From positions 6,618,501 to 6,682,500 of the forward strand of contig OZ038529.1 in the NCBI GenBank assembly GCA_964036665.1: 64,000 nt of DNA, given 5' to 3'. Below the pieces are notes generated by a model that was not told the DNA's origin, did no database searches, and was given only the letters and a program-made list of their open reading frames with translations. This stretch comes from Gordius sp. MW1 (lineage: Eukaryota > Nematomorpha > Gordioida > Gordea > Gordiidae). A program made the translations under genes and the position numbers. This document shows, piece by piece, positions 3,084 through 28,949 of this stretch (its first letter is position 1; the number at the start of each line of letters is the position of its first letter).

Positions 3084-3739
3084 GTCTTTAATGGTGGCCC
3101 GTCAACTCGCCGAAAACAATCTCGCCGAATTTAATGTCCCCAAGCTAAAAAATGTCCCCAAATTTGTGATTGGTTGAATGGGGGACGATTTTAAGCTGGG
3201 GGACATTGAACAACCATTCAGAAAATGTACCTTGGTGAGTTTCGGCGAGATTGTTTTCGGCGTGTTGATAGTAGTGTTGTAAAAAACCAAGGGTTTCTAT
3301 TGGTTGCCTGCAAGCGTTGGCGTTTTTTTTCACCCAACCTTTTCAGTGTTAGGTGAATTTTCTTGGGAGGGCTTTGGCGTTTGGCGTTTTCGTAAAAAAC
3401 ACCCAAAGCGTTTTTGGTGTTTTTTTTGGGGGCACCTTTGGCGTTTAGGTTTGAGTGTATTAAAGAGCTAAAGGGTTTGGGTGGATAATATTATTAACCT
3501 TTTGGTTTGGTTTTGGTCGTTTTGGGTTGGGCATGCAAATATATTAATTTGTTTATATTGTTCATCATATTTGTGTATTTAGATTTAGGTAATGAACTTT
3601 TAATTTAAGAAAATAAAAATAAATGTATCATGACGTCACAATCTAGTAAATTCAGTAAATTATAGTTAATTATTATGCATTATAGATGTAGGTAGTGAAT
3701 CAATATGTTTTATTTATGAAAAAAAAATTTGTGAAGATT

Positions 3740-5012
3740 TGCCCCCCCCCCTTTATTTTTTACCCTCTTTCTCACCTGGGGATGAACGGCGGGCAGGTGG
3801 GGTGTTTGCCCCCCCCCCCTTATTTTTTACCTTCTTTCTGATCCGGGGGAGAAGCGGGGGGGGCAGGGGGGTGTTTTGCCCCCCCCACTAAATTTTTACC
3901 CTCTTTCTGATGCGAGGGAGAGGGGGGGCAGGGGGTGTTTTGCCCCCCTCCCCCCTTATTTTTTACCCTCTTTCTGATGTGGGGGAGAGGGGGGGGCATA
4001 GGGGGTGTTTTACCCCCCCCCCCCCTTATTTTTTACCCTCTTTCTGATCAGGGGGAGAGGGGGGGGCATGGGGGGTGTTTTGCCCCCCACTATATTTTTT
4101 ACCCTCTTTCTGATGTGGGAGAGGGGGGGGGGCATAGGGGGTGTTTTGCCCCCCTCGCCCCTTATTTTTTACCCTCTTTCTGATGTGGGGGAGAGGGGGG
4201 GCATAGGAGGTGTTTTGCCCCCCTCCCCCCTTATTTTTTACCCTCTTTCTGATGTGGCTGAGAGGGGGGGGGCACAGGGGGTGTTTTACCCCCCCCCCCT
4301 AATTTTTTACCCTCTTTCTGATCAGGGGGAGAGGGGGGGGGGGGGCATGGGGGGTGTTTTGCCCCCCCCCCTAATTTTTTACTTTCTTTCTGATGCGAGG
4401 GAGAGGGGGGGGGCAGGGGGTGTTTTGCCCCCCCCCCTAATTTTTTATCTTCTTTCTAATGCGGGGGAGAGGGGGGCATGAGGGGTGTTTTGCCCCCCCC
4501 CTAATTTTTTACCCTCTTTCTAATGCGGGGGAGAGGGGGGCATGGGGGGTGTTTTGCCCCCCCCCCTTAATTTTTTACCCTGTTTCTGATCCAGAGGAGA
4601 GGGGGGGCATAGGGGGTGTTTTGCCCCCCCCCCCCTCTTATTTTTTACCCTCTTGAGAGGGGGGTCATGGGGGGTGTTTTGTTCCCCCCCTTTAATTTTT
4701 ACATGTGGGGGAGAGGGGGGGCATAGGGTGTTTTGCCCCCCTCCCCCCTTATTTTTTACCCTCTTTCTGATGTGGGGGAGAGGGGGGGGGGCATAGGGGG
4801 TGTTTTACCCCCCCCCCTCTAATTTTTTACCCTCTTTTTGATCAGGGGGAGAGGGGGGCATGGGGGGTGTTTTGCCCCCCCCCCTTATTTTTTACCCTCT
4901 TTCTAATGTGGGGGAGAGGGGGGGGGCATGGGGGGTGTTTTGCCGCCCCCCCCCCAATTATTTACCCTCTTTCTAATGCGGGGGAGAGGGGGGGGCATAG
5001 GGGGTGTTTTCA
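3740..5012 (+). repeat. G/C-run minisatellite, left arm (about 18 units of ~70 bp)
   Basis: The unit of about 70 bp runs C-tract, TTATTTTTTACCCTCTTTCT, GATG(T/C)GGGGGAGAG, G-tract, CAT, G5-6, TGTTTTG, C-tract. Units differ by point variants (GATCAGG, GATGCGAGG, GATGTGGG, AATGCGG), which makes each identifiable. G-runs and C-runs alternate on one strand, so both strands have potential for quadruplex, i-motif or local hairpin structures. Confidence 0.9.
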
Positions 5013-5059
5013 ATAAATATAAAACGATTATAAAGTGAGATTTATCTGGCCATTCGAGA

Positions 5060-6226
5060 TAGTGTTTCGATCTCGTCTCGTCTCGGTCTCGAAAACAAAA
5101 TCTCGTCTTGTCTCGGGAGCGATAAAGAAAATCTCGATCTCGTCTCGTCTCGGTTTAGAAAAATCTTGGTCTCGTCTCGTCTCGACGAGAATTCTCGTCT
5201 CGTCTCGACTTTTAAATAAAAATATATACGGAATAGAAATTTCTCCTGTTTTATTAAAAATATAAATGAGTGTTCAAAAATCCAAATGGCAAATTTTATA
5301 TTTTTAGAAAAACTTTAATACACAAACTTTTTAAAGATTTAGCGGGACACGACATCTCATTGACAATATAAAGATATGAATCAACTCATAAAGATAACCT
5401 TTTCTATAAAAAGTGCAGACTAAAAAAACTATAGATAAATTTGAAATATAAAAAATTAAATTTTATTGTTCTAGCAAATTATAATATTTGTATTAAATTC
5501 ACTGTGTCTGTCAACTATAAATGGACTTCGAAAATTATAAGTTCGCTTATAGTTGATTTAGTTGCATAATTGAGCAAAATGAGACCCTTTATTAACCTTT
5601 GCTAATGCTTCAAAGTAGACCTTAACATATTTAAGGCAAATGTTTAAGTCCATTAATATAACCATCATTAATTATAGCCCATAGTGTTTATTGCATGTTT
5701 ACTATAGCGCTATAAACCACAAAGTGCGAGTGACATTTAATGATGTTATTATTATTTACAGAATTGATAACTAGTTGCACAAATTAAAACGTTGTAAAAA
5801 CAACAAAGCAGCGTTATTATAGAATTAAGAACATAAGGTTTAAACTTTAAATTAATGAGTACGTATTTAAATGTATGACAAAAATCAACCATACTTAGGT
5901 AAATGATTGCCAAATTTTAATTTTTTTGCAAAAATATATAATATTAACTACACTTGGGATTTTTTTTAATATCAAATATATTCCATACATATTGATTTAC
6001 ACTTAATGCCTTAAATGTAAATTAAAATACACAATAATTTACTAAAATCTAACGATCAATAAAAAGTCGAGATCTCGCCGAGAAAATCTCGTATCGTCTC
6101 GTCTCGACCTCAAAATTCTCGTCTCGATCTCGACTCCATTTTTCAAATTCTCGTCTCGTCTCGTCTCGGTTTTTCGAAACGAGACGAGACGAGACCGAGA
6201 TTTTTCTCGGTTTTTCCGCATCACTA
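5060..6226. mobile_element. Non-autonomous hAT-like element with TCTCG subterminal repeats
   Basis: Ends are TAGTGTTTCGATCTCGTCTC at 5060 and CCGCATCACTA at 6226. An 8-bp duplication attcgaga flanks it (5052-5059 and 6227-6234). Each end carries clustered GTCTC/TCTCG repeats in inverted orientation (about 5066-5208 and 6065-6200). The AT-rich interior has no protein match. A degenerate cluster of the same repeats lies at about 38340-38440. Confidence 0.8.
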
Positions 6227-7480
6227 ATTCGAGAGCAGATTTTGAATTCAATCCTTCAATTAAAAATTAATATTTTAATTCATTCTAAAATAATGACAGC
6301 TAAGAGATCCCCCTCTAAATATTCCCGGCAATAGCAATTTTAATCGCAAAATTTAATTTCAAATATATTTTGAATTCCTCGCCTCTTGTAAAAGATAAAG
6401 ACTTATTAATTATATAATGTCCCTTTTATTTTATATTTAAACTCTATTTTCAATATCAGAGAACGGCATCCCGCGCGACTCGACATATCACCACTTCCAT
6501 GTAGCATGTACATGTTCATGTACTAATCCACCCTCTCTCTTCCTTCTCTCGTTGCAATGCATGCGCAAAACCAGATTTAAACCTATCAGATTTAAGTTAA
6601 GTACTAAACTAAATATATAAAAAAATCATGGCACAACAAGGCATGGTGTGGCGTGGGCTGGCTAGGCTCTTTATTACATCATTTTACATTCATTTCTTTT
6701 TTAACGTACAACATATCAAGGTATGTAGAAGTTGCAAATCATATTATTATAAATAAAATAAATGAAAATTAAACTTTTTTTTATTATGTCAACTACTAAT
6801 TAAGTCATAATCAATTAGAAAATTAAGTTTCTTATTAAATAATAAGCAATAATTTAAATTAAGATGCTTAACTCATTTTTGTTACTCAGAAAAGTTCGAT
6901 ATTTTTTATGATCCTTATAAGCATTGTAAACGAGAAGTCTAAGTCAACAGGACGTAGAGTGTTGGTGCCTTGTGAAAGCATAGTAATTAATAGCATGATA
7001 TGCTTTTTGGAAATACCAAGTTTTTCCATTAAATGCCCAGATAACTTAAATAGTAAAACTTACTTACCCATGATGGCAAATTTTTTTAAACTGGTAAAAT
7101 TTCATATTAATATTATATTTAATAATACAGCTTATTTCGTAAATGAAGTTAAATTAAAAAAATTTATTTTAATTGATATGGTATATTAAGACAATTTTTG
7201 ACCGCAAATCTTCAAAAATATATTTTCGAATATTAGAAAATCTTTGTCATATAATAAGGCAATTTTCAAAAAAAAAAAATTTCAATAGAAAATGTTGATT
7301 AAGACATTTGTCATCACTGTGACCGCAAATCTTCCCAAAAATATTTTTTATAATAGTAGAACATCTTTCATTCATATAATAAGTCTATTTTAAAAAAAAA
7401 TATTAATCTCAATAGAAATTGTTGATTATGACATTTGTCACCACTGTGACCGCAAAAATTCACAAAAATATTTTGAAAGG
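6227..7480. other. Interior of foldback element, with a ~123-bp tandem repeat
   Basis: Mostly AT-rich. From about 7199 to 7470 a block beginning GACCGCAAATCTTC recurs with a period near 120-128 bp, about 2.2 copies (7199, 7320, 7448). A 93-codon ORF at 6908-7189 has no recognisable domain and I do not call it a gene. Confidence 0.5.
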
Positions 7481-7489
7481 GTTAAAAAG

Positions 7490-8440
7490 GGCTTTCCGGC
7501 AACCCCCCGGGTGAGAAAGAGAGTAAAAAATAAGAAGAGGGTCGATTCACCCCCCCCCCCCTCTCCCCTGCATCAGAAAGAGGGTAAAAAATAAGGGGGG
7601 GGGGCAAAACACCCCCCATGCCCCCCCCTTCCCGGGTGAGAAAGAGGTAAAAAATAAGGGGGGGGGGCAAAACACCCCTCATGCCCCCCTCTCCCCCGCA
7701 TTAGAAAGAAGATAAAAAATTAGGGGGGGGCAAAACACCCCCTGCCCCCCCCCCCTCTCCCTCGCATCAGAAAGAAAGTAAAAAATTAGGGGGGGGGGCA
7801 AAACACCCCCCATGCCCCCCCCCCCCTCTCCCCCTGATCAGAAAGAGGGTAAAAAATTAGGGGGGGGGGGTAAAACACCCCCTGTGCCCCCCCCCCCCTC
7901 TCAGCCACATCAGAAAGAGGGTAAAAAATAAGGGGGGAGGGGGGCAAAACACCTCCTATGCCCCCCCTCTCCCCCACATCAGAAAGAGGGTAAAAAATAC
8001 GGGGGGAGGGGGGCAAAACACCCCCTATGCCCCCCCCCCTCTCCCACATCAGAAAGAGGGTAAAAAATATAGAGGGGGGGGCAAAACACCCCCCATGCCC
8101 CCCCCCCTCTCCCCCTGATCAGAAAGAGGGTAAAAAATTAGGGGGGGGGGGTAAAACACCCCCTATGCCCCCCCCCCTCTCCCCCACATCAGAAAGAGGG
8201 TAAAAAATAAGGGGGGAGGGGGGCAAAACACCCCCTGCCCCCCCTCTCCCTCGCATCAGAAAGAGGGTAAAAATTTAGTGGGGGGGGGGGGCAAAACACC
8301 CCTCTGCCCCCCCCCGCTTCTCTCCCGGATCAGAAAGAAGGTAAAAAATAAGGGGGGGGGGCAAACACCCCACCTGCCCGCCGTTCATCCCCAGGTGAGA
8401 AAGAGGGTAAAAACTAAAGGGGGGGGGCAAATCTTCACAA
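7490..8440 (-). repeat. G/C-run minisatellite, right arm (about 14 units)
   Basis: This is the inverted counterpart of the array at 3740-5012. Read from the outside in, the unit variants follow the same order as in the left arm: the ACCTGGGGATGAACGGCGGG unit, then GATCCGGG, GATGCGAGG with ACTAAATTTTT, GATGTGGGGG, GATCAGG, and GATGTGGGAG with ATATTTTTT. The arrays differ in length, about 1.27 against 0.95 kb. Confidence 0.9.
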
Positions 8441-8978
8441 ATTTTTTTTTTCATAAATAAAACATATTGATTCACTACCTACTTCTATAATGCATAATAA
8501 TTAACTATAATTTACTGAATTTACTAGATTGTGACGTCATGATACATTTATTTTTATTTTCTTAAATTAAAAGTTCATTACCTAAATCTAAATACACAAA
8601 TATGATGAACAATATAAACAAATTGATATATTTGCATGCCCAACCCAAAACGACCAAAACCAAACCAAAAGGTTAATAATATTATCCACCCAAACCCTTT
8701 AGCTCTTTAATACACTCAAACCTAAACGCCAAAGGTGCCCCCAAAAAAAACACCCAAAACGCTTTGGGTGTTTTTTACGAAAACGCCAAACGCCAAAGCC
8801 CTCCCAAGAAAATTCACCTAACACTGAAAAGGTTGGGTGAAAAAAAACGCCAACAACTAAGCTTAGCAATACGCTGGGAAAAACCAGCCAGCCGTTTTTA
8901 CAACACTAGTTGATAGGGCACCGTCTATAATGATGCGACTAGGCGTGCCAAGGTAACGAATTGATTACATCTGCTAAA

Positions 8979-11900
8979 ATGTCAAGTGAAAGGCCCAAAC
9001 GTGAAAAGGCTGGGAATAGAATGGCTTCGTTAATTAATAATGAAGAAGAAGATGATTTTTACAAAAATATTTACGATGGATTTAAAGAGGTATTTATACT
9101 TTATTATTTTGTCAAAAATTAGGAAGAAAATGATTTGGAATATCAATCAGGATTTGAGGGTAGCACAGATGTATCTGACTCTGACATAAGCGTAAGCGAA
9201 AATGAAGAAATTGTCGAAAATCAGGAACTAGAGATTGTTAATGAAAAGAAAATTACCAAAACGGCCCTTGTTCAAGCATGTTAAAATTAAGTTTCCATAA
9301 AACTATTTGTTTATAATTAAACCAAATGCTACATAACTTAATTTTCCTATAATCCTTAATAATATATTTATATAGGCTGCCATTAAAAAGTCAACACTTA
9401 ATAAAAGGGGAGAAGTACCAAAAGCAAAAAATGTTCAGCATCCACAAGTCATTTTGGATGATAAAACATGTAAATTTAAGTATTGATTTTTTAAACATGA
9501 ATTAGTAAAAAGTAAAATGGAAGTACGACAATCTACTCTAAATAAATCTACTGTGACCAAGCTAAAACATATTGATCATGTTGAAAGATCTCAAAAATTT
9601 AAAAAAATATGGGCAGAAAGACATCATGGTTCATATAAAAAGTTTACTCAAGCAGAGCTTTTAGAGCAGGCAAAAACAAATGAACAAATCAACTTAAAAT
9701 CTCTTGGTATATTTTTGTAGAAATTTTGTTTTCATTAAACCCCCATATTTACCATTAGAAAAATATCAAAATCAAGAAGCAGAACTTAAAAAAAAGGCAA
9801 GATCCATTAAAAAGAAATGTCAATTTCAAAGCTATGTTCGTACATTATCCACTCTCAAATCCATTAAAAAATCTGTGGACGATGAACCAATGGTCCAAGA
9901 TCAAAGTCTCGAGTATGGCTAATTTATTATAGTATTTATTTCAAATACAGTTGATGCCTTTAACAGTCACGTTTTTATGTCAAATATTTTACATACACTT
10001 TATTTTGAAATTTAAGTTGTTGTATATTTGAGGTCTGCAACAACTTTTATTATAAGAATGGCTGGCTTGTACTCCTCATGAAAACTTTAGTATCCACCTC
10101 AACCCGAGCCCATCCATCTTTTTTCATGCACTTTAGGCCTGGCCCTAGAGCCCTGCATGAGCCGTCCAAAGCCCGGTGTAATATCCATTTCCATGACGCT
10201 CAAAAAAATCGACATGCCAATTAAAAAATTTTCTTAAATTTTAAAATTAAATTTCTATAGGCTAACACAAACGTCAATCAACAGATGTTTTCGGTTAATA
10301 ACCTATAATATTCACAAAAAATATTGATTAATTCAACCATGGTTTACAAGCCTAATTACAATTTATCATATTTAGCACACTATGCATTTACTTATCTTTT
10401 GATATGTGGCTTTGAGCTTGAGCTGATGAATTATATCTATGTTTATAAGCCTATCCTTTTAAATGTAATTTTGGTAAAGCTTATAATTTGAGCTGATTTA
10501 ATTGATAAACTCATAATTGTATTTGGTACATTTATAATAATCTAAGGCAGTGGTTCTTAACCTTTTTATACACGCGGCCCCCCAAATATTTTATAATTTG
10601 TTTGCGGCCCCCATTTTTTCATAATAATTTATATTTGTTATATTATCTATAATATATTGATTTTCTATTATTTTTTCATTTTATTAAATAATAAACATAA
10701 AACACAACTTTATTATTTTATTATCTATTTAAAATTTAAATAGATAATGAAATAAACATAAAAACTTCATAATTAAACATAAAAACAATGTTTAAAATAA
10801 AAAATATATGCATTCGGAAATATATTTAATGCGATTTCTGCTGCTGAACATCTTCAGCCAATTTGTTAATTCTTGGTTCAATTGATTGTAATGCTATCCT
10901 CATGCAGGAATCTAGTCGCAATCGATTGCGTTTTTTAGTTTTTATATCCACCATAGTTGAGAAGCCTTTTTCACACAAATATGTACTAGCGAAAGGCAGC
11001 AAATTTTGAATTGCTGCTGAAAATAATAAAGTATATTCTGCACGAATTTGTATCCAAAATTGCGGCAAACTTTTAGTTTTAAACAAAGATTTTAAATTAC
11101 AATCACTTATTAATTCTAATAATGAATCTTAAGGCAACGAGTTCGAATCCCCTGGTGAGTATTTTTTCTAAAGCTTTTCTGAATATTTTTATTTTATTCT
11201 AAAAAAATTTTGCGGCCCCCGGCAAACTTCTCGCGACCCCCTAGGGGGTCGCGACCCCCAGGTTAAGAATCACTGATCTAAGGGATATCTGAGTGAGTAT
11301 TTAAATACATGTTATTGACTTTAAGCTGATATTCATAACATCATTATAAGCCTATCCTTATAATTATTATTATTGTCTAAGCTTAAAATAAATATATGTA
11401 ATACAATAAGGTAAAGTTAATAACTTAGGCTAATTCTAATCATAAAATTAAATTATAATCAAAGATTTTTTAATACGCTTTAAATGATTATGTGCATTTT
11501 TATACAAAATTAGAGATATTAAATGGAATAAAATACATATGCTTGACTAAACTGATATTCATAATTTTCTTGATCTAATCTAAATTATAATAAGAATTAT
11601 TATGAAATACATGTTAAAAAAGATTTGATAATATACTTAAAATGGCTAAATTTATAGTTTGTAAATTTGTGATCTGTCATAGTTTGCAATTCTCTCTAAT
11701 TTATAATTTATGTAATTTTGCATAGTAATTACTTGAATTATTTTGAAAGTCTTGCGTCGTCATTTTATGTCTTCAAAAATTAATAGCTATTTTTGTGCCA
11801 AAACTAACCTATTGTGCTTTTAGGAAGATCACGTGATATGGCATATAATTTAACATTTCGCCATATTAACCAATAAAAATGCTCAATTCAGCGTCGTCGT

Positions 11901-14900
11901 TTTTTAAATGTCGTCATTTAAACAGCGACATTTATAAAACGACGACGCTGAATCGAACATATTAATTAATATGGCATAGTAACGAGTTATATGCCATATC
12001 ACGTGATCTTTCTAAAAATACAATTGGTTAGTTTTGGCACAAAATGATCTATTTTTTTGACGACACTAAAATGACGACAAGACATTAAAATTCCAGTATT
12101 TACTAAGCATTTATCAAGTCTGCATTTCTATAATAATTTAGATTTGATTAAGAAACTTATAATTCAGTAGCTTATGTAAAAAAGGAATTTATAAGGTTTT
12201 GCTCATTCATGTTAAGAGTTTTATTTACAATTATTGTTATGCTTTGTAAGATATTATATCTAAAGAACTAAACTATATTAAAAGAATATTAATTATAGTT
12301 AAATTTTCTTAAAATCTGCATAAAGTCTATATGTATATTTGAATCTTTAATTTAATATCTATAGGTTTAAAAAATGTGCCAAATACAGTCATTTATTAAG
12401 CTTACAAAAATAATTTTATTATAATTTGAGTTTATTATTAAAATTAGCTTAGGTTATAATTTTTACCAAAATTATATTATATATAATTATTTTAAGCTTA
12501 AAAATTAATGAATACCATACTAAAGTCAAGAACATGTATTTAAATGCTAATCTCAATATTAATTTTCTAGTCATATAATGCTCAAATTAGATTCGACCCT
12601 TTTTTATGGTGGTTAATGAATAACCCTCATAATTATGGTGAATAATAATTATTTTGTTATATTATATTTGAAATTTATTAGTAAATTGCGGGTTTGATAA
12701 TAATCAGAAGAAGATAATAATAACCTCTTTCAGGAGTGCCGCAATTAAATTAAAAGTAACCTACATGTAATGATTTGTAAGCCTATGGAAATTTAATTTC
12801 GAATTTCAAAATATATTTTTGATTGGCATGTCGTTTTTTTTGTGCGTCGTGGAAATGGATATTACACCGGCCCGTCCTGGGCCAAATAAGTAAATCGGAC
12901 CGCGGGTTCGGGTCGGGCCTGATGGGTCGACCCAACAAGGCAAAATCTAGCTAAAATATTTTTTTAAGTTTTACTAATCCCTTTGCTGATATTTAGAAAA
13001 GACAATATATTTTTGAGTTATATAGAAGGTGCGGGTGGGTATTATGAATAAATTTTTTTAATTACATTTCAGAAAAGTCGGGCCGGGTTCGGGTCGTGCC
13101 TGAGGAAAAAAATTCGGGCTCAGGTCGGACTTGAGCAAAATAAAAAGTTTCGGGCCATGCTCGGGCTGAAGAAATTTTATTTGGCAGGGCTCTACCTGGC
13201 CCTGTACCAAGATTGGATTGTTCAGCCCAGCCCATGAATAAAAAAATGCTTCATTAAATATCCTTTTACTGATATTATTTTTAAGGCGTTGCCAACAATT
13301 AAATCGTTTGATTTTCTAAGGGTTTTTCAATATTTAATATTAAAAATCTCTTCAGCAATTTTAAAGTTGTGATTGGTTCAGCATCTCATATAGAATATCA
13401 TCTCCAAATTGTTGTGTGCCTAAATAGGGGTTTCAAAAAATATTTAGGTTAGGATTTGTAAAATAATAATGCCAAGTATTAAAGGGGTTATTTTTTGTAA
13501 TTCGAACTCCACATGTCCGCATTAGCTGCACATAATCATTTTAAATTTGATTCTTATTCAAAAAATTGGCAATAGTACTAAGCGAAAAGCCCCTACAATA
13601 AAAAATTTAATTAAGTAGCGTTTTGTACATAATTTGAAACATCTTAATAATTGGTTTCAAATGGAGAAGCTACTTTAATAAGGTATGTAAAAGTGAAGTC
13701 GTGTATTAGAAAAAAATGAGAATTTAGGACGAAATGCAAAATGAATAAATGCGACAGATATAAAAATGTTACTAAATAAATGCCTAAATTGAATAAATTA
13801 ACCTTGATTCAAACATTTTTATGTTTATAAATAATTAATCCATATTTGAAAAAGAATTGAAAAGACAAATGATGTAAGAGCCGTTTGTGGTTCGCTTAAA
13901 TCTATTATTTATTTCAGGACCGTGTATATAACTTTAGATCATCCGAGCCCATTATTAAAATTATTTGGCCCGCGCGAGCCCGTCTAAAATTTTTTATTTT
14001 CCAAGCCCCTCGGTGTCCGCTCGCGGACTGGATTTGCCTGTGCAGATCTTTAGTCTCTAATTATTTTAAAATGTCGTTTTTATAATTAATCAAATTATTG
14101 TTTGATTAAATTACACGGTTCAACAGCGAAATCGACCGGTAAACTGTTTGTAGTTTTTGGTATTTTTCATGTGAACACGAATATATTTATAATTTTTTCC
14201 CGGTACGACAAGTTTTTGAAATATTTGCTATCAAAGTTGCTAGAAATAGCGATTTTAGACTTTGTCAAACGTCAATAACTTGCAAATTAATCGGTAAATT
14301 TTAGTCTAATAAATTTGATTTATAAAGGGGAGAGGAATCCATTAATCCTTGTTAATTACCATCAAATAGAATTATATTGGTCTATACTTTATGAAACACA
14401 AATAAAAATCTAATTGATTTTGTAACGGGCTTTTAGCGGGCCTTACATATATCTAGGTCCGGCTCGAGCCCAAAACTTTTTATTACGGCCCGTTGTTTAA
14501 AGCAGAAGTCCGTCCAAGCCGCCCGCGGGTCGGGCTGGGCCGCGCAGGTCTCTATTAGTATTAGATAAGAACACGCACTTAATTGCTAGTATTAAAGGGA
14601 AGGGAGGGCGACCTTAAGTCTGGGGCAATTTGTCAATGTAAAACAATATCAGATAAGCAAATTTTGAATACATAGCAAAATTACCAATTTATTTGCAAGT
14701 TAATGACGTTTGAAAAACGGCCAGATCGCTGTTTTTAGCAATTTTGACAGCAAGTATTTCAAAAACTTGACATGCTGTGAAAAATTAAAATTTTATTTGT
14801 GTTTACCGTAAAACACTACCAAAACCTGCAAACAGTTTACCGATTAATTTCTTAAGTCCATTTTTGTTTGCCAGTATTATTGACAGGAACAGCTCTTATG

Positions 14901-15449: not shown

Positions 15450-17045
15450 ATGATACAAAATAAGAAAGATCTTCTTTTTCTTTATCAGTTATTGGGTCCC
15501 AGATTCATGGGGTTTGTTTTTATAAGCTTCTTCCATCTTGACCGGGTGAGTGCCATGCTTGACTAATCTCTTTAGTTTTCATAACTTTATCGATTTGCCC
15601 TTTCCACGTGACACGGGGTCGTCCTCTTCCTCTCTTCCCCGGTACCTCCATGTCCAGTACTTTTCGATTTACGTCACCCGTGTCCCTTCTTATTATATGC
15701 CCTTACCACCTTAGCCGATTTTCGTTAATCATGTTCCCCATAGGTTAAATACCCATTTTTCATGAGAAAGTCATTCGTCATATGGTCGAGCTTAGTATAC
15801 CCCAAGCTCCACCGTATCATTCTCGTGGCTTGTAATCACTTTCATTCCGTGGTGCTTAGTGCCCATGTTTCACTTCCATAGAGTAACACAGGTCTTACGA
15901 TGGATTTGTAAGCTTTGCTCTTCAACCATATTGGCATTTTCTTGTCACACATTACACCGGATATACTTCGCCATTTAAGCCATCCTTTTTGGATCCGGGC
16001 ATTGACTTCTGTTGCGCAACCTCCCTCTTGATGTAGCATCGAGCCGAGGTATGTAAACCTGTCTACTTTTGCGAACTTTAGATGGTCATCCAGCGATGGG
16101 GTGCTTGTACCGTTCATTTCCATGTATACCGTTTTTCAATCGTTGACCTTTAAACCATATCCAGAGCTAAGCGCTTCGACCACTTTTCGACTTCTTCGAA
16201 TACTTTCTCCCTTGTTTCCTCGCATAGTACTATATCATCGGCATATAGCATACACCATGGCGATGGCTTTTGAATGTCCCTCGTTATCGTGTCTATAATT
16301 ATATTAAATAAAAAGGGACTTAAAGCAGATCCTTGATGTAATCCAATTTTATCCGGAAAGGATTTAGAGTCTCCAACTGTCGTCCTAACGCAAGATTTTG
16401 AGGCTTCATAAATATTTTTCATAAGCCTTATATATGCGTCAGGGATATTTTGTTTTCTTAAGCACCACCATATTAAATCGCGGGGGACCGTGTCATAAGC
16501 TTTCTCCAAGTCAATAAAGACCATCTGTAGGTCTTTCCTCTTTTCACTATACCTATCCATCATTTCTCTTAGTGCGAAGATTGGGTCGATTATGGATTTA
16601 CCGGCCACATATTGATTAGCCGATATTTCCACCTCGTTTTTCAGCCTTGTTACTAAAATCCTTTTTATAAGCTTCAAGGAGTGGCAAGTTAGTTTGACAC
16701 CTATGTAATTGCCACAGTCTTGAGGGTCTCCTTTGCCTTTAAATAAGGGTTTAATCGTGCTTGCTCTCCACTGATTAGGAATTCGCTCTTCTACCAATAT
16801 CTTGTTAAGAAGGTTCGTCATGGTGGTGACTCCTTCTTCACGACATCCGAGCAATGCTTCCATAGGTATTCCATCTGGGCCATTTGCTTTTCCTTTTTGC
16901 ATCTTGTTCATTTGTGTCCTAACTTCATCCTCCTGAAAGAGTTCGATCATACATATATTTGGCTCAATTTTGGGAAGGGAATCCTTGTCATTTGCACTAT
17001 TCATAAGTTTCTTAAAATATCCTTTCCACCTTTCCATCACTTCTT
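15450..17045 (-). mobile_element. RTE-like non-LTR retrotransposon, reverse transcriptase and 3' end, degenerate
   Basis: Minus-strand ORF 16150-17040 (296 aa) holds the reverse transcriptase. Motifs in order are N-Q-W-R-A-S-T-I-K-P-L-F-K-G-K-G-D, VFIDLEKAYDTVPRD, LHQGSALSPFLFN and the catalytic YADDIVLC. A frameshift moves homology to ORF 15842-16123 (thumb, ending L-L-Y-G-S-E-T-W-A-L). A further shift leads to the usual C-terminus with G-K-R-G-R-G-R-P-R and W-H-x-x-x-Q-D-G-R-S. The 5' endonuclease domain is missing, so the copy is 5'-truncated and broken by at least two frameshifts. It lies just downstream of the VPS72 stop. A shorter 3' piece of the same family is at 60600-60885. Confidence 0.88.
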
Positions 17046-20979: not shown

Positions 20980-22149
20980 TTATAAAGGATTGAAATAAAA
21001 TGTTTTAGACAATCTAGAAGTAAATTCACATAACATTTTATGACCAGATTTTGATTCATAATTTGTAATTATGACATCATTAACTTTAGTTAACATAGTT
21101 AAAATATCATTTTCATGTGCACATAGGGAAAACACATGAACTAGAGATCTAATAAACCAAGTCCCTAAATAATCATTTCGCCATGATACATAGCCTGGTA
21201 GAGTTGCATAGGCAAATAACATGTCCATCCCAGTTGGATATTTGATAGGGTTTACTTTGCTATCATCTATTATTATTTTAGAGTCAGTAGAGTCTCCACT
21301 ATTTTGGGTGGCTGAAACATGCAAAAATCCCTTATCTCTTTCATCACCTCTACAAGCTTGCAATATAAATATTTTTGGCTTTCCATGTAAATTTTGGCAA
21401 ACTTTACCATCAAACAAAGATGCTATATAATCTAGAGATAGCAGTTGACCATCTATACCAAAAATCTTGTCATTAGTTCCATGACTTAATATAGATACAA
21501 TTGTAGAATTAGAATGATCAGATCTGTTAGAAAAATTGTAAAGGCTGTCTTTCATTTGCTCTTTAGTCAAATCACATTTAATTACAATTTTATATCCTAA
21601 TTTGGCCAATAATGATTGCAGGTTTACACAATCATATGAAGTCCCTTTTCTTTGAGCTAAATTAGTCTCCAAAATAAAATGTTCATTGTTTATTATTAGT
21701 GCCAACCCTTTCCATTTTAAGGACATTTCATATATACCAGGTCCAGAATAGATGACTTGTGTTTGCTTCATCAAAATGTCTAAAATCCCATTTCTGTTGT
21801 TTAGATTTGCATTAGTTAAACATCCATTATTATTGCTTTTTAGTTTGGTATTCATATTAGTTGTTGTAACAAAGGCAGAGTCAGGTTTTAATTTTGATGC
21901 TAAATTATATTGCTGTGTAGTGAGCAAAGCTTCAATAAAATTGTAAAACGCTTTTGGTCCACGCTTCTGAATGTCTAGAATGAACTTAAATTTTTGTTGA
22001 TGATATGCTCCAGCATTTTTAATGCTTTCAACCATAGCTTCACTAAACACCTTTGAAGCCATCAATAAAGGAAAAATAGCGTCTAAATTTAGATCCCTAA
22101 CCATGATCTCAGTACATTCTCTTAACAGTTTTTTGTGATTATTTTCCAT
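20980..22149 (-). CDS. CARD-containing initiator-type caspase
   Basis: A cysteine protease cleaving after aspartate in apoptosis. One uninterrupted ORF of 389 aa encodes an N-terminal CARD (about residues 1-88, recruitment to an Apaf-1-like platform). A variable Asn-rich linker follows (about 90-125), then the p20 part with substrate-arginine motif Q-R-K-G-T (about 166-170), the catalytic His in SILSHG (His223) and the catalytic Cys in QACRGDE (Cys266). An Asp-rich inter-subunit linker follows (about 281-300) with likely processing sites, then p10 with the S1-S3 pocket motif V-S-W-R-N (about 321-325). Length and order match CED-3, Dronc and caspase-2. All expected catalytic residues are present, so it looks functional. 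It is intronless, unlike its multi-exon neighbour. The start is the only upstream ATG in frame before stops. It may be co-transcribed with the PHF7-like gene. Confidence 0.93.
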   Translation of the reverse strand: MENNHKKLLRECTEIMVRDLNLDAIFPLLMASKVFSEAMVESIKNAGAYHQQKFKFILDIQKRGPKAFYNFIEALLTTQQYNLASKLKPDSAFVTTTNMNTKLKSNNNGCLTNANLNNRNGILDILMKQTQVIYSGPGIYEMSLKWKGLALIINNEHFILETNLAQRKGTSYDCVNLQSLLAKLGYKIVIKCDLTKEQMKDSLYNFSNRSDHSNSTIVSILSHGTNDKIFGIDGQLLSLDYIASLFDGKVCQNLHGKPKIFILQACRGDERDKGFLHVSATQNSGDSTDSKIIIDDSKVNPIKYPTGMDMLFAYATLPGYVSWRNDYLGTWFIRSLVHVFSLCAHENDILTMLTKVNDVIITNYESKSGHKMLCEFTSRLSKTFYFNPL

Positions 22150-24842: not shown

Positions 24843-25448
24843 ATGAGTGATCATCCCAAAATTCATAAAAGTTTCAATGGACCTTCTAATATTTTTTGTG
24901 ATGATCATGAAAGAGAATTAAAAGATGTAATGTTACCACATAGCTTAGTTTGGACTCCAATTCCTGTGATTACATGGCTGCTACCCTTTATTGGTCACAT
25001 GGGAGTAACAACTTCACGTGGAACAATATATGATTTTGCTGCACCTTATCATGTGGGAATAGATGATATGGCATTTGGAGGCAAGCCTATAAAATATTAC
25101 CCTATAAAGCTTGACAGGGGAGAGGTTTGTAAAGCCTGGGATGAAGCTATTTGTTCTTCATCTAGGGAATACAATGATTACCATGTACATAATCTTTTTT
25201 TGGACAATTGTCATAGTCACGTTGCATTGTGCCTTAACACATTTATAGCTTCTGCAGAACTTTCTAACATCCCAAAAGATATTAAATCAAGAGGACCTTG
25301 GACTGTCCCAAAATTGGCATTTTTAATGTTTGTCCATGGACGTTATGTAACATGGCATGGATTTCTCAAAACTTGGTTCCCATTTTGCTTCATTATTATA
25401 TTTATATTTGTTATGATTTATGTGTCAAAAGTATTTTTAAATTTTTGA
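24843..25448 (+). CDS. TMEM222: TMEM222-family membrane protein (DUF778)
   Basis: A 201-aa intronless ORF, close to the human length of about 208. TMEM222 is a conserved eukaryotic membrane protein whose biochemical role is unknown to me. The hallmark features are all visible: S-L-V-W-T-P-I-P-V-I-T-W-L-L-P-F-I-G-H-M-G with a first hydrophobic segment (about residues 35-55), then D-F-A-A-P-Y and an N-C-H-S-H-V-A motif (about 122-128, conserved Asn-Cys-His). A second hydrophobic helix (about 180-200) ends the protein. The start is the first ATG of the frame. An AATAAA-like site lies near 25640, and a Mutator-like MITE is inserted 270 bp after the stop. Confidence 0.9.
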   Translation: MSDHPKIHKSFNGPSNIFCDDHERELKDVMLPHSLVWTPIPVITWLLPFIGHMGVTTSRGTIYDFAAPYHVGIDDMAFGGKPIKYYPIKLDRGEVCKAWDEAICSSSREYNDYHVHNLFLDNCHSHVALCLNTFIASAELSNIPKDIKSRGPWTVPKLAFLMFVHGRYVTWHGFLKTWFPFCFIIIFIFVMIYVSKVFLNF

Positions 25449-27669: not shown

Positions 27670-28949
27670 TTATTTACACACGTAAGATCGGCACAATGGA
27701 CAAGTCGATGAATCCTATATGAATAATATATTAAAAACACAAATATATTAAAATCGACAATTAAACAAAAGCCTTAACTTAACTAAAATCTATTAAAAAA
27801 TAAGATTTTAAACAATTAAAGATGTTTTATTCTAAAAAATGAGAGAATAATATTAGTTTTTTAAATAATAATTTTAATAAAATACATTATAATCAAATCT
27901 TTTTTGCAAAGGAGGAACAATTTAAGTTAAAAATAAAAAAAAATTGGCAAAAAAACTTTCTTAATTAACCCTATGGGGTATATGGGACCCCAAACGCTTA
28001 TATCTCCAAAAGTATTAAGGCAAATTTAATGAAGTTTTCAGGAAATGTAGCTTTTGTATAATTATGAAAACTCTAAAAAACAGATTTCTAAATCTAAAAC
28101 TATTCAAGTGGTGTTAAATTATAACCTTCGTGCGGTTTCTCAGACCCCATAAGTACATGGGAGGGCATGGGCGTAGCCAGGGGGGGGGGGGCGGCTGCCC
28201 CCCCCCCCCTAATTAGCCGGGGGGCAGGGGCGCGGCTGCCCCCCCCCCTAATTTAAAAAAAAAGGATTTCAATACACAAACCCTTAATTGAACTTAACTC
28301 AAATCAATACAGATGCGTATTAGCGAATTTACACAAAAAAATGAAATTTAAATTAGGGTCGCAGGAAAATTTTTGGATAGTCGAGACCTTTTTTTTTGCT
28401 CTCAGGAAAATTTTTGGATAGTCGAGAGCTTTTTTTTAAACTGCCCCCCCCCCCCTAATTCAAAACCTGGCTACGCCCATGTTGGAGGGTTTAAAAACTA
28501 GCCATTTACAACTTAACCCATTTGTCTAAGTATGCATCCATAGATTAAAAAAAAATTAAACTAATATTAATATTTAAAAATGTAAAAAAATAAATAGAAA
28601 TTAAAATATTGTTTACATATAACCATTGACTGAGACAATGTTTATGATAATCGTGATGACAAGAAGTTACACTGAGCATTTCCCCCTCGTAAAATTGTTC
28701 CAAACAAATGGCACACATGTCTCCATCATTCGCCTTCCTACTCTTCGCCTCAAATTCATAATCAATTAACGAACCAATGATGTCTCTATAATATTTATAA
28801 AAAAAATTACATTTCAATATAAACTTATCTTATAAAATCTAAATAAAAAGAAAAGATTTTTATAACATTTTTAACCAAAATTCCATTTATAGCTAAACAA
28901 TACAAGCATGTCTTTCTCTGGAGATGCCTTTGATCATAATGATATTTTA
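27670..28949 (-). CDS. RING-H2 finger protein, C-terminal exons (5' end unresolved)
   Basis: Two exons read with confidence: 28785-28617 and 27714-27670, joined in phase 0. Together they give a complete RING-H2 finger: C-A-I-C, then C-H-H-D-Y-H-K-H-C-L-S-Q-W-L, then T-C-P-L-C-R. The protein ends four residues after the last RING segment (S-Y-V-C-K). Such fingers bind zinc and recruit E2 ubiquitin enzymes, so an E3 ligase role is likely. A candidate upstream exon at 28949-28904 (KYHYDQRHLQRKTC) keeps the frame and has plausible splice sites, but I see no homology to confirm it, and the start codon was not found. The 902-bp intron 27715-28616 holds a piggyBac-like MITE interrupted by another MITE. 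Confidence 0.72.
27965..28497. mobile_element. piggyBac-like MITE (TTAA), interrupted
   Basis: The left end is TTAACCCTATGGGGTATATG, with GGGACCCC just inside. The right side has GACCCCATAAGTACATGG then GGAGGGTTTAA, but is split by the MITE at 28166-28481. CCCT/AGGG ends at TTAA sites are the piggyBac pattern. The right boundary is approximate. Confidence 0.5.
28166..28481. mobile_element. CATGGGCGTAGCC-type MITE inside the piggyBac-like MITE
   Basis: Starts CATGGGCGTAGCCAGG, ends CTGGCTACGCCCATG. Flanks are tgggaggg and ttggaggg, an 8-bp duplication with one mismatch. Inside are internal duplications of G-tract/C-tract blocks and of an AGGAAAATTTTTGGATAGTC segment. Confidence 0.8.

Follow-up and report, generated by a model that had tools for sequence, protein, structure and literature searches.

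This work reports that a 5,637-bp element at positions 3272-8908 of the window, the 64,000-nucleotide stretch of the Gordius sp. MW1 genome analysed here (contig C3, 6618501-6682500; genome of 212 Mb in 12 contigs), is very probably a recently active, non-autonomous, foldback-type transposon of the hAT superfamily. As an earlier sequence-only reading had proposed, it is a single hAT-type foldback with a perfect 8-bp duplication: the octamer GTTGATAG flanks it on both sides, and TAGTGTTGTAAAAA is present at both its left and right ends. The inverted arms, about 1.74 kb on the left and about 1.41 kb on the right, are each built, from outside in, of a tip, a unique arm of about 420 bp and a minisatellite with a period of about 70 bp, and the repeat finder (3738-5010 and 7552-8431) bore out the view that they are largely minisatellite. 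The arms align at 95.4% over 1,357 columns with gaps counted (3316-4654 versus 8854-7517), and the left and right unique arms of this copy differ at few sites. The outer 44 bp on the left and 54 bp on the right are inverted copies of each other over a 14-bp terminal inverted repeat (TIR) only, so that the long arms begin inside them and the two tips are different sequences past the TIR. With up to two mismatches allowed, the 14-bp tip has 22 matches in the window versus 2.3 expected, a number equalled in 0 of 100 shuffles. The size of 5.6 kb is correct for the element as found, but 1,167 bp of it is a separate nested element, and without this insert and its duplication the foldback measures 4,462 bp. 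The longest open reading frame (ORF), of 158 aa, lies within the minisatellite; in the Pfam scan, which covered the 93-aa ORF of the core, this ORF has no match. Long inverted arms with tandem repeats that vary between copies, together with little or no coding capacity, are both found here, as in foldback elements.

The element moves whole, from one tip to the other, and leaves 8-bp duplications. Fifteen copies were assembled by joining overlapping loci, out of 30 arm loci, and 12 of them, at different places, have perfect 8-bp duplications. For the copy L014 on C9, the joined flanks run uninterrupted in L049 (C9) and L050 (C8), with 98.8% identity over 600 bp and 1 mismatch in the 80 bases spanning the junction, and neither L049 nor L050 has an exact tip. 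Because tips, arms, arrays and core are lacking together at this empty site, it is the whole element that is missing there. L049 and L050, the latter near the start of C8, each have a core copy beside the 600-bp L014 flank sequence; the sequence that they share is a segmental duplication, in which the empty site of L014 is kept at two paralogous places. The left tip and the arm also belong together: genome-wide, the arm's G is missing after just 2 exact inner left tips, versus 148 exact copies of the left-tip 32-mer.

The hAT assignment is drawn from the ends and the target sites. The short TIRs of hAT elements are of the type YARNG, and TAGTGTTGTAAAAA has this form at both ends. Duplications are 8 bp long, perfect also in the compact member L107 and with one mismatch between the octamers of L106, a 229-bp internal deletion. 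Among the octamers of 29 copies, a set that leaves out L038, whose match starts inside the tip, T is found at the second position in 21 and A at the seventh in 25; both occur together in 18 of the 29 versus 11.5% of the window octamers (binomial p ~1e-10). In the 12 octamers confirmed on both sides, T2 is found in 9, A7 in all 12, and both in 9. This is the preference, nTnnnnAn, described for the hAT transposon Hermes, which makes 8-bp duplications, and the two different tips fit the left/right asymmetry of the Hermes ends that is treated in the same source (PMC10368747). Domains of this superfamily are abundant in the genome, since PF05699 gave 150 scored matches out of 3,413 first-look places. 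From these, 24 places were picked by score and reading-frame group, and their 3′ flanks of 1.1-1.2 kb were searched for the tips. TTTTTACAACACTA, with up to three mismatches, gave six weak matches in five of 13 flanks, none of which was taken as an end, and CAACACTA, with up to one mismatch, gave no match preceded by family sequence in all 24. PF10683 gave 101 matches (150 scored of 203 places), and none of them adjoins the listed tips in a by-eye comparison. A 3,013-bp TIR pair on C1, considered as an autonomous candidate, was rejected, as its octamers are mismatched and it has no stop-free stretch of more than 75 codons.

The element belongs to a family with probably 150-200 copies. Genome-wide, the exact left-tip 32-mer occurs 148 times and the exact right-tip 37-mer 210 times, with none for the controls, and a 479-bp left-end query gave 40 matches at 97-100% over nearly the full length plus one 33-bp fragment (40 candidates scored out of 611 first-look places). 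On C1-C4, 54 of 68 left tips have a properly oriented right tip less than 12 kb away, at a spacing of 229-11,984 bp, leaving 14 left tips and 40 of 93 right tips unpaired; pairing took the nearest right tip, one right tip is shared by two left tips, and a few pairs are possibly wrong. The core, without the nested insert, is 1,302-1,304 bp in nine copies, and 2,479 bp in the window copy with the insert included. Nine of the 17 left arms examined continue into this usual core, in seven the array extends roughly to where the retrieved locus stops, and L026 leaves the array after 8 units and enters other sequence. The unit 21-mer has 1,168 + 1,194 genome copies; the first 100 places listed (C1 to about 8 Mb) fall into 11 clusters, nine of them inverted (+ then -), one in a single orientation and one incomplete at the end of the listed places, and none of these 11 is proven to be a free satellite array. 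Four inverted minisatellite clusters on C1 (1008644-1009425, 1265655-1266326, 2731054-2732174 and 5089912-5091010) have no exact tip listed nearby; these may be members that have diverged, or a further subfamily whose middle is shorter. On C2, the region 5564906-5659108 holds six right tips in alternating orientation at steps of about 16-21 kb, with two 15.87-kb intervals between facing right tips; this series may be a segmental duplication, or large units with two right ends.

The sequence-only reading had also matched the ends to the MITEs (miniature inverted-repeat transposable elements) of the window and grouped all as a single family ranging in size from 82 bp to 5.6 kb. The match extends over 21 bp at the right tip, but over only 14 bp at the left. 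The family is indeed larger than one element, and its members with exactly these tips begin at 229 bp, whereas the window MITEs of 82-240 bp share only the 14-bp TIR with the left tip and 21 bp with the right tip, identity past the TIR being limited to the right. The 14-bp TIR itself is far more widespread (2,338 + 2,353 copies versus 16 + 15 for a reversed control); the host elements of its copies were looked at within the window.

The minisatellite travels inside the element, and blocks of units distinguish one copy from another. Where both arrays were measured (ten copies), the left array is 363-1,449 bp and the right 928-1,927 bp. Unit maps of 28 arms in 14 copies, with homopolymers collapsed, indicate for the main group that both arms are versions of a single longer array and largely collinear; maps are more divergent in L034 and in the group L018-L020. 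At different sites, L014 and L015 have identical maps in both arms and L016 differs in two left-arm units, so that an array passes through transposition with little change. The right map of L013 matches that of L012 except that ten units in a row are missing, most simply read as the loss of a block. The left unique arm of L016 has the right-arm state in five columns between 138 and 371, including one indel, whereas both siblings, L014 and L015, show the left-arm state there; from column 436 on, L016 again has left-arm states, which bounds the tract. In the wider alignment, two of these states alone, G at its position 141 and T at 303, are distinctive enough of right arms to indicate a direction. 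The tract looks like a candidate arm-to-arm conversion, a single case, with its own right arm or that of a sibling as the putative donor. Mean arm divergence is 0.63% within a copy (13 copies, L034 being dropped as its right arm was not parsed), 0.89% for left versus right between copies, 0.75% for left-left and 0.69% for right-right. Quadruplex-type G-run motifs number 11 + 9 in the element versus 10 + 5 elsewhere in the window, and hairpin folding of two single units and the left end was not clearly better than that of shuffles (z -0.6, -1.6 and -0.9). We infer that the array is a passenger made unstable by its G/C runs. The motif TTGGCGTT is present in four copies per unique arm and otherwise absent from the element, and the remaining 58 kb of the window have it once per strand; it is a candidate subterminal binding motif.

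Several observations weigh against the interpretation given here. Three of the 15 assembled copies have no matching second octamer (those of L012 and L034 differ, and the assembly of L037 stops short of its right end), and 17 of the 29 octamers were without right-side confirmation. A search of the retrieved loci with the joined flanks of 14 copies, in 5 of which the right flank was 100 bases or less, found one clean empty site (L014), a weak and partial one of about 79% with only about 35 bases on the left side (L020), and none for the others. An autonomous partner with these tips was found in 0 of the 24 hAT 3′ flanks, so the superfamily has been assigned from the tips and target sites rather than from a transposase. 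As for exchange between the arms, the divergence within copies is only slightly under that between copies (0.63% versus 0.89%), so that homogenization of the arms is weak. Furthermore, the core has the same orientation in all 18 testable copies (18 of the 22 cores found were matched to a left tip by coordinates, four were unmatched), so crossing over between arms, which is expected to flip the core, is rare or absent among these 18.

Two alternatives would take the structure itself apart, and both are considered very unlikely. The array and the ends could derive from separate events at this locus, a minisatellite or another foldback having been inserted in an older hAT MITE; the outer 44 and 54 bp do lie outside the long inverted arms, and a compact member without minisatellite exists (L107). 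However, all 15 assembled copies combine the left tip with the array, 14 of them have both ends, unit maps are shared, the inner left tips without the arm's next base are just the 2 mentioned, and the L014 empty site lacks the whole element. The composite origin, which the earlier reading had named as grounds for its own refutation, is therefore contradicted at the window locus, while the joining of array and arm may be one old event that preceded the spread of the family. Still more improbable is an assembly fold, wherein one arm would be an artefactual copy of the other. The arms are long, inverted and 95% alike, as such a fold would have them, but the structure recurs at many places, 14 copies have both ends, the 10 copies with both arrays measured have different left and right unit numbers, and identical left/right differences are found in L014, L015 and L016.

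The superfamily and the role of the units leave room for two further readings. The anatomy is close to that of Tm1, with asymmetric terminal motifs outside composite inverted repeats as PMC3169594 portrays them, and of Tetris (PMC4079207), so that the element could be a foldback of Mutator or P type, like Tm1, Tetris, FB and Galileo, rather than hAT. This is quite improbable, as 12 of the 15 assembled copies have 8-bp duplications and the target sites show the T2/A7 preference known from Hermes, while Tm1 duplications are, in the account of PMC3169594, most commonly 9 bp with no clear consensus. The minisatellite units could bind the transposase, as proposed for Galileo, whose tandem repeats are cited in PMC4079207 as secondary binding sites, and long arrays would then be selected for transposition. 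Each of the 17 left arms examined has at least 5 units, but the candidate motif TTGGCGTT, enriched near the ends, is found in the unique arms only and not in the units, and the 980-bp member has a perfect duplication but no array. We regard selection of this kind as unlikely, and keep to the reading of a hAT-type foldback with a passenger array.

The compact member L107 (C2:8374070-8375049) bears on the origin of this family. It is 980 bp long, with a perfect duplication CTGCGTAC, and lacks both minisatellite and core; its tips are identical to those of the window copy at 43 of 44 and 54 of 54 positions. Its palindromic arms are 97.9% alike over 384 ungapped positions, 90-92% like the window arms, and, read by eye, share differences from the window copy, so that L107 represents a separate lineage rather than simply a deleted long form. 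As a model of the ancestor it is the best available, though it may instead be a sister lineage whose array was lost. That a compact palindromic hAT element gained the core and the G/C-run array, and that thereafter both inverted arrays lengthened and shortened in concert, each arm being a template for the other, is a tentative proposal, which we hold to be possible but rather doubtful.

Long inverted repeats with tandem repeats have been found in several other systems. The sea-urchin TU elements of Lieberman (in 1983) reportedly combine them with 8-bp duplications. The sequence-only reading held that a hAT signature with minisatellite arms was undescribed, which does not stand, since gadMor-hAT-1784 of Atlantic cod, reported in 2025 and the nearest system in the literature searched, is a hAT-derived MITE with TIRs of about 600 bp made of 167-169-bp tandem repeats (PMC12368964). 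That source describes it as hAT-derived and non-autonomous, with long TIRs from tandem repeats and no ORF identified, as here; in contrast, the cod element has 167-169-bp units, shorter arms and tandem accumulations at inversion breakpoints, whereas in the present one G/C-run units of about 70 bp lie inward of a distinct unique arm, the tips are asymmetric and a core of 1.3 kb is present. Tetris of Drosophila virilis is a foldback whose arm likewise consists of a terminal unique domain followed by tandem repeats in variable number, which has end sequences in common with the MITE DAIBAM and for which no transposase was found; however, it has 8-10-bp duplications, a suggested Mutator affiliation, and units of about 220 bp also present as free satellite-like arrays (PMC4079207). 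Tm1 of root-knot nematodes has composite inverted repeats with tandem motifs, short asymmetric outer motifs and MITE-like short members, but, as PMC3169594 presents it, differs by mostly 9-bp duplications without a clear consensus, filing under Mutator and repeats of about 14 bp. Galileo of Drosophila has long inverted repeats whose length is altered by tandem repeats and recruited internal sequence, but belongs to the P superfamily, and its tandem repeats in D. willistoni are, in the treatment of PMC4168063, in one copy only. Rice foldbacks with short tandem repeats in the TIRs are mentioned in a review (PMC10794571). It is thus well supported that the present family is new, with the anatomy of Tetris and Tm1 and the target-site signature of hAT, a combination already known in kind.

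The nested element at 5060-6226 is a separate, later insertion of another hAT-like MITE. It has its own 8-bp duplication ATTCGAGA at 5052-5059 and 6227-6234 and is absent from all 21 other cores found, in which the core parts adjoin and the octamer is single. Its first 200 bp or so match the 3′ ends in L088 and L090, two of the flanks searched for a partner, which bear the tip of the nested element in place of the foldback tips; the match is at 89-90%, downstream of hAT-domain frames of 573 aa and 465 aa, and the hAT frames at C6:5655409, C6:5657935 and C8:21829720 are likely autonomous relatives of it. On C6, two 573-aa hAT-domain frames lie in opposite orientations, about 2.5 kb apart.

Table 1. 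Parts of the foldback element, with positions in the window.
Feature	Position	Strand
Left target-site duplication GTTGATAG	3264..3271	
Whole foldback hAT-type element, 5,637 bp	3272..8908	+
Left tip, 44 bp; 32-mer from tip with 148 exact genome copies	3272..3315	+
Left unique arm, ~420 bp, 4x TTGGCGTT motif	3316..3737	+
Left minisatellite, period 70, 19.0 copies, C-runs alternating with G-runs	3738..5010	+
Core part 1; final 8 bp (5052-5059) duplicated by nested element	5011..5059	+
Nested hAT-like MITE, 1,167 bp, tips TAGTGTTTCGATCTCG / TAGTGATGCGG	5060..6226	+
Core part 2, holds 93-aa ORF	6227..7500	+
127-bp tandem repeat in core, 2.2 copies	7199..7474	+
Right minisatellite, inverted copy of left; period 70, ~13 copies (repeat finder: 7552-8431, 12.8)	7504..8431	-
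Right unique arm, ~420 bp, inverted near-identical copy of left	8432..8854	-
Right tip, 54 bp; 37-mer from tip with 210 exact genome copies	8855..8908	-
Right target-site duplication GTTGATAG	8909..8916	

A YL1/VPS72-like gene, with its presumed start codon at 8979 and a putative first intron of 33 bases (9090-9122), begins 70 bases beyond the right end of the element. Elsewhere in the window there are a reverse transcriptase fragment (16150-17040), a CARD-caspase (20980-22146), an RTE1-like gene (24843-25445), and another G/C-run tandem repeat with a 39-bp period (28174-28253). The YL1/VPS72-like gene, the CARD-caspase and the RTE1-like gene give the window an animal-like gene content. The 3,049 bp at 10146-13194 have candidate hAT-like ends TAGAGCCCTGC and the octamer CCTGGCCC on both sides, possibly by chance.

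Based on these findings, we propose that a hAT transposase encoded elsewhere in the genome would recognize both of the different tips, and perhaps also the TTGGCGTT motifs of the unique arms, and would move the element by cut-and-paste transposition, with the internal sequence largely free to vary. The start could have been a compact palindromic element like the 980-bp copy, which would have gained the 1.3-kb core and the minisatellite later. Then, the inverted arrays may be weakly kept alike through arm-to-arm copying, while array length could shift by slippage or template switching at the G/C runs.

In the host genome, the G/C-run arrays of 1.3 and 0.9 kb beside the YL1/VPS72-like gene could affect its expression. 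To our knowledge, how foldback transposons gain and keep long repeat-built arms is unsettled. This one genome holds many young copies, arrays readable unit by unit, a compact relative, an empty site and a candidate arm conversion, by which the steps can be put in order. If the compact ancestor and the arms as mutual templates are true, the family would be an exceptional natural record of the formation and evolution of foldback arms.

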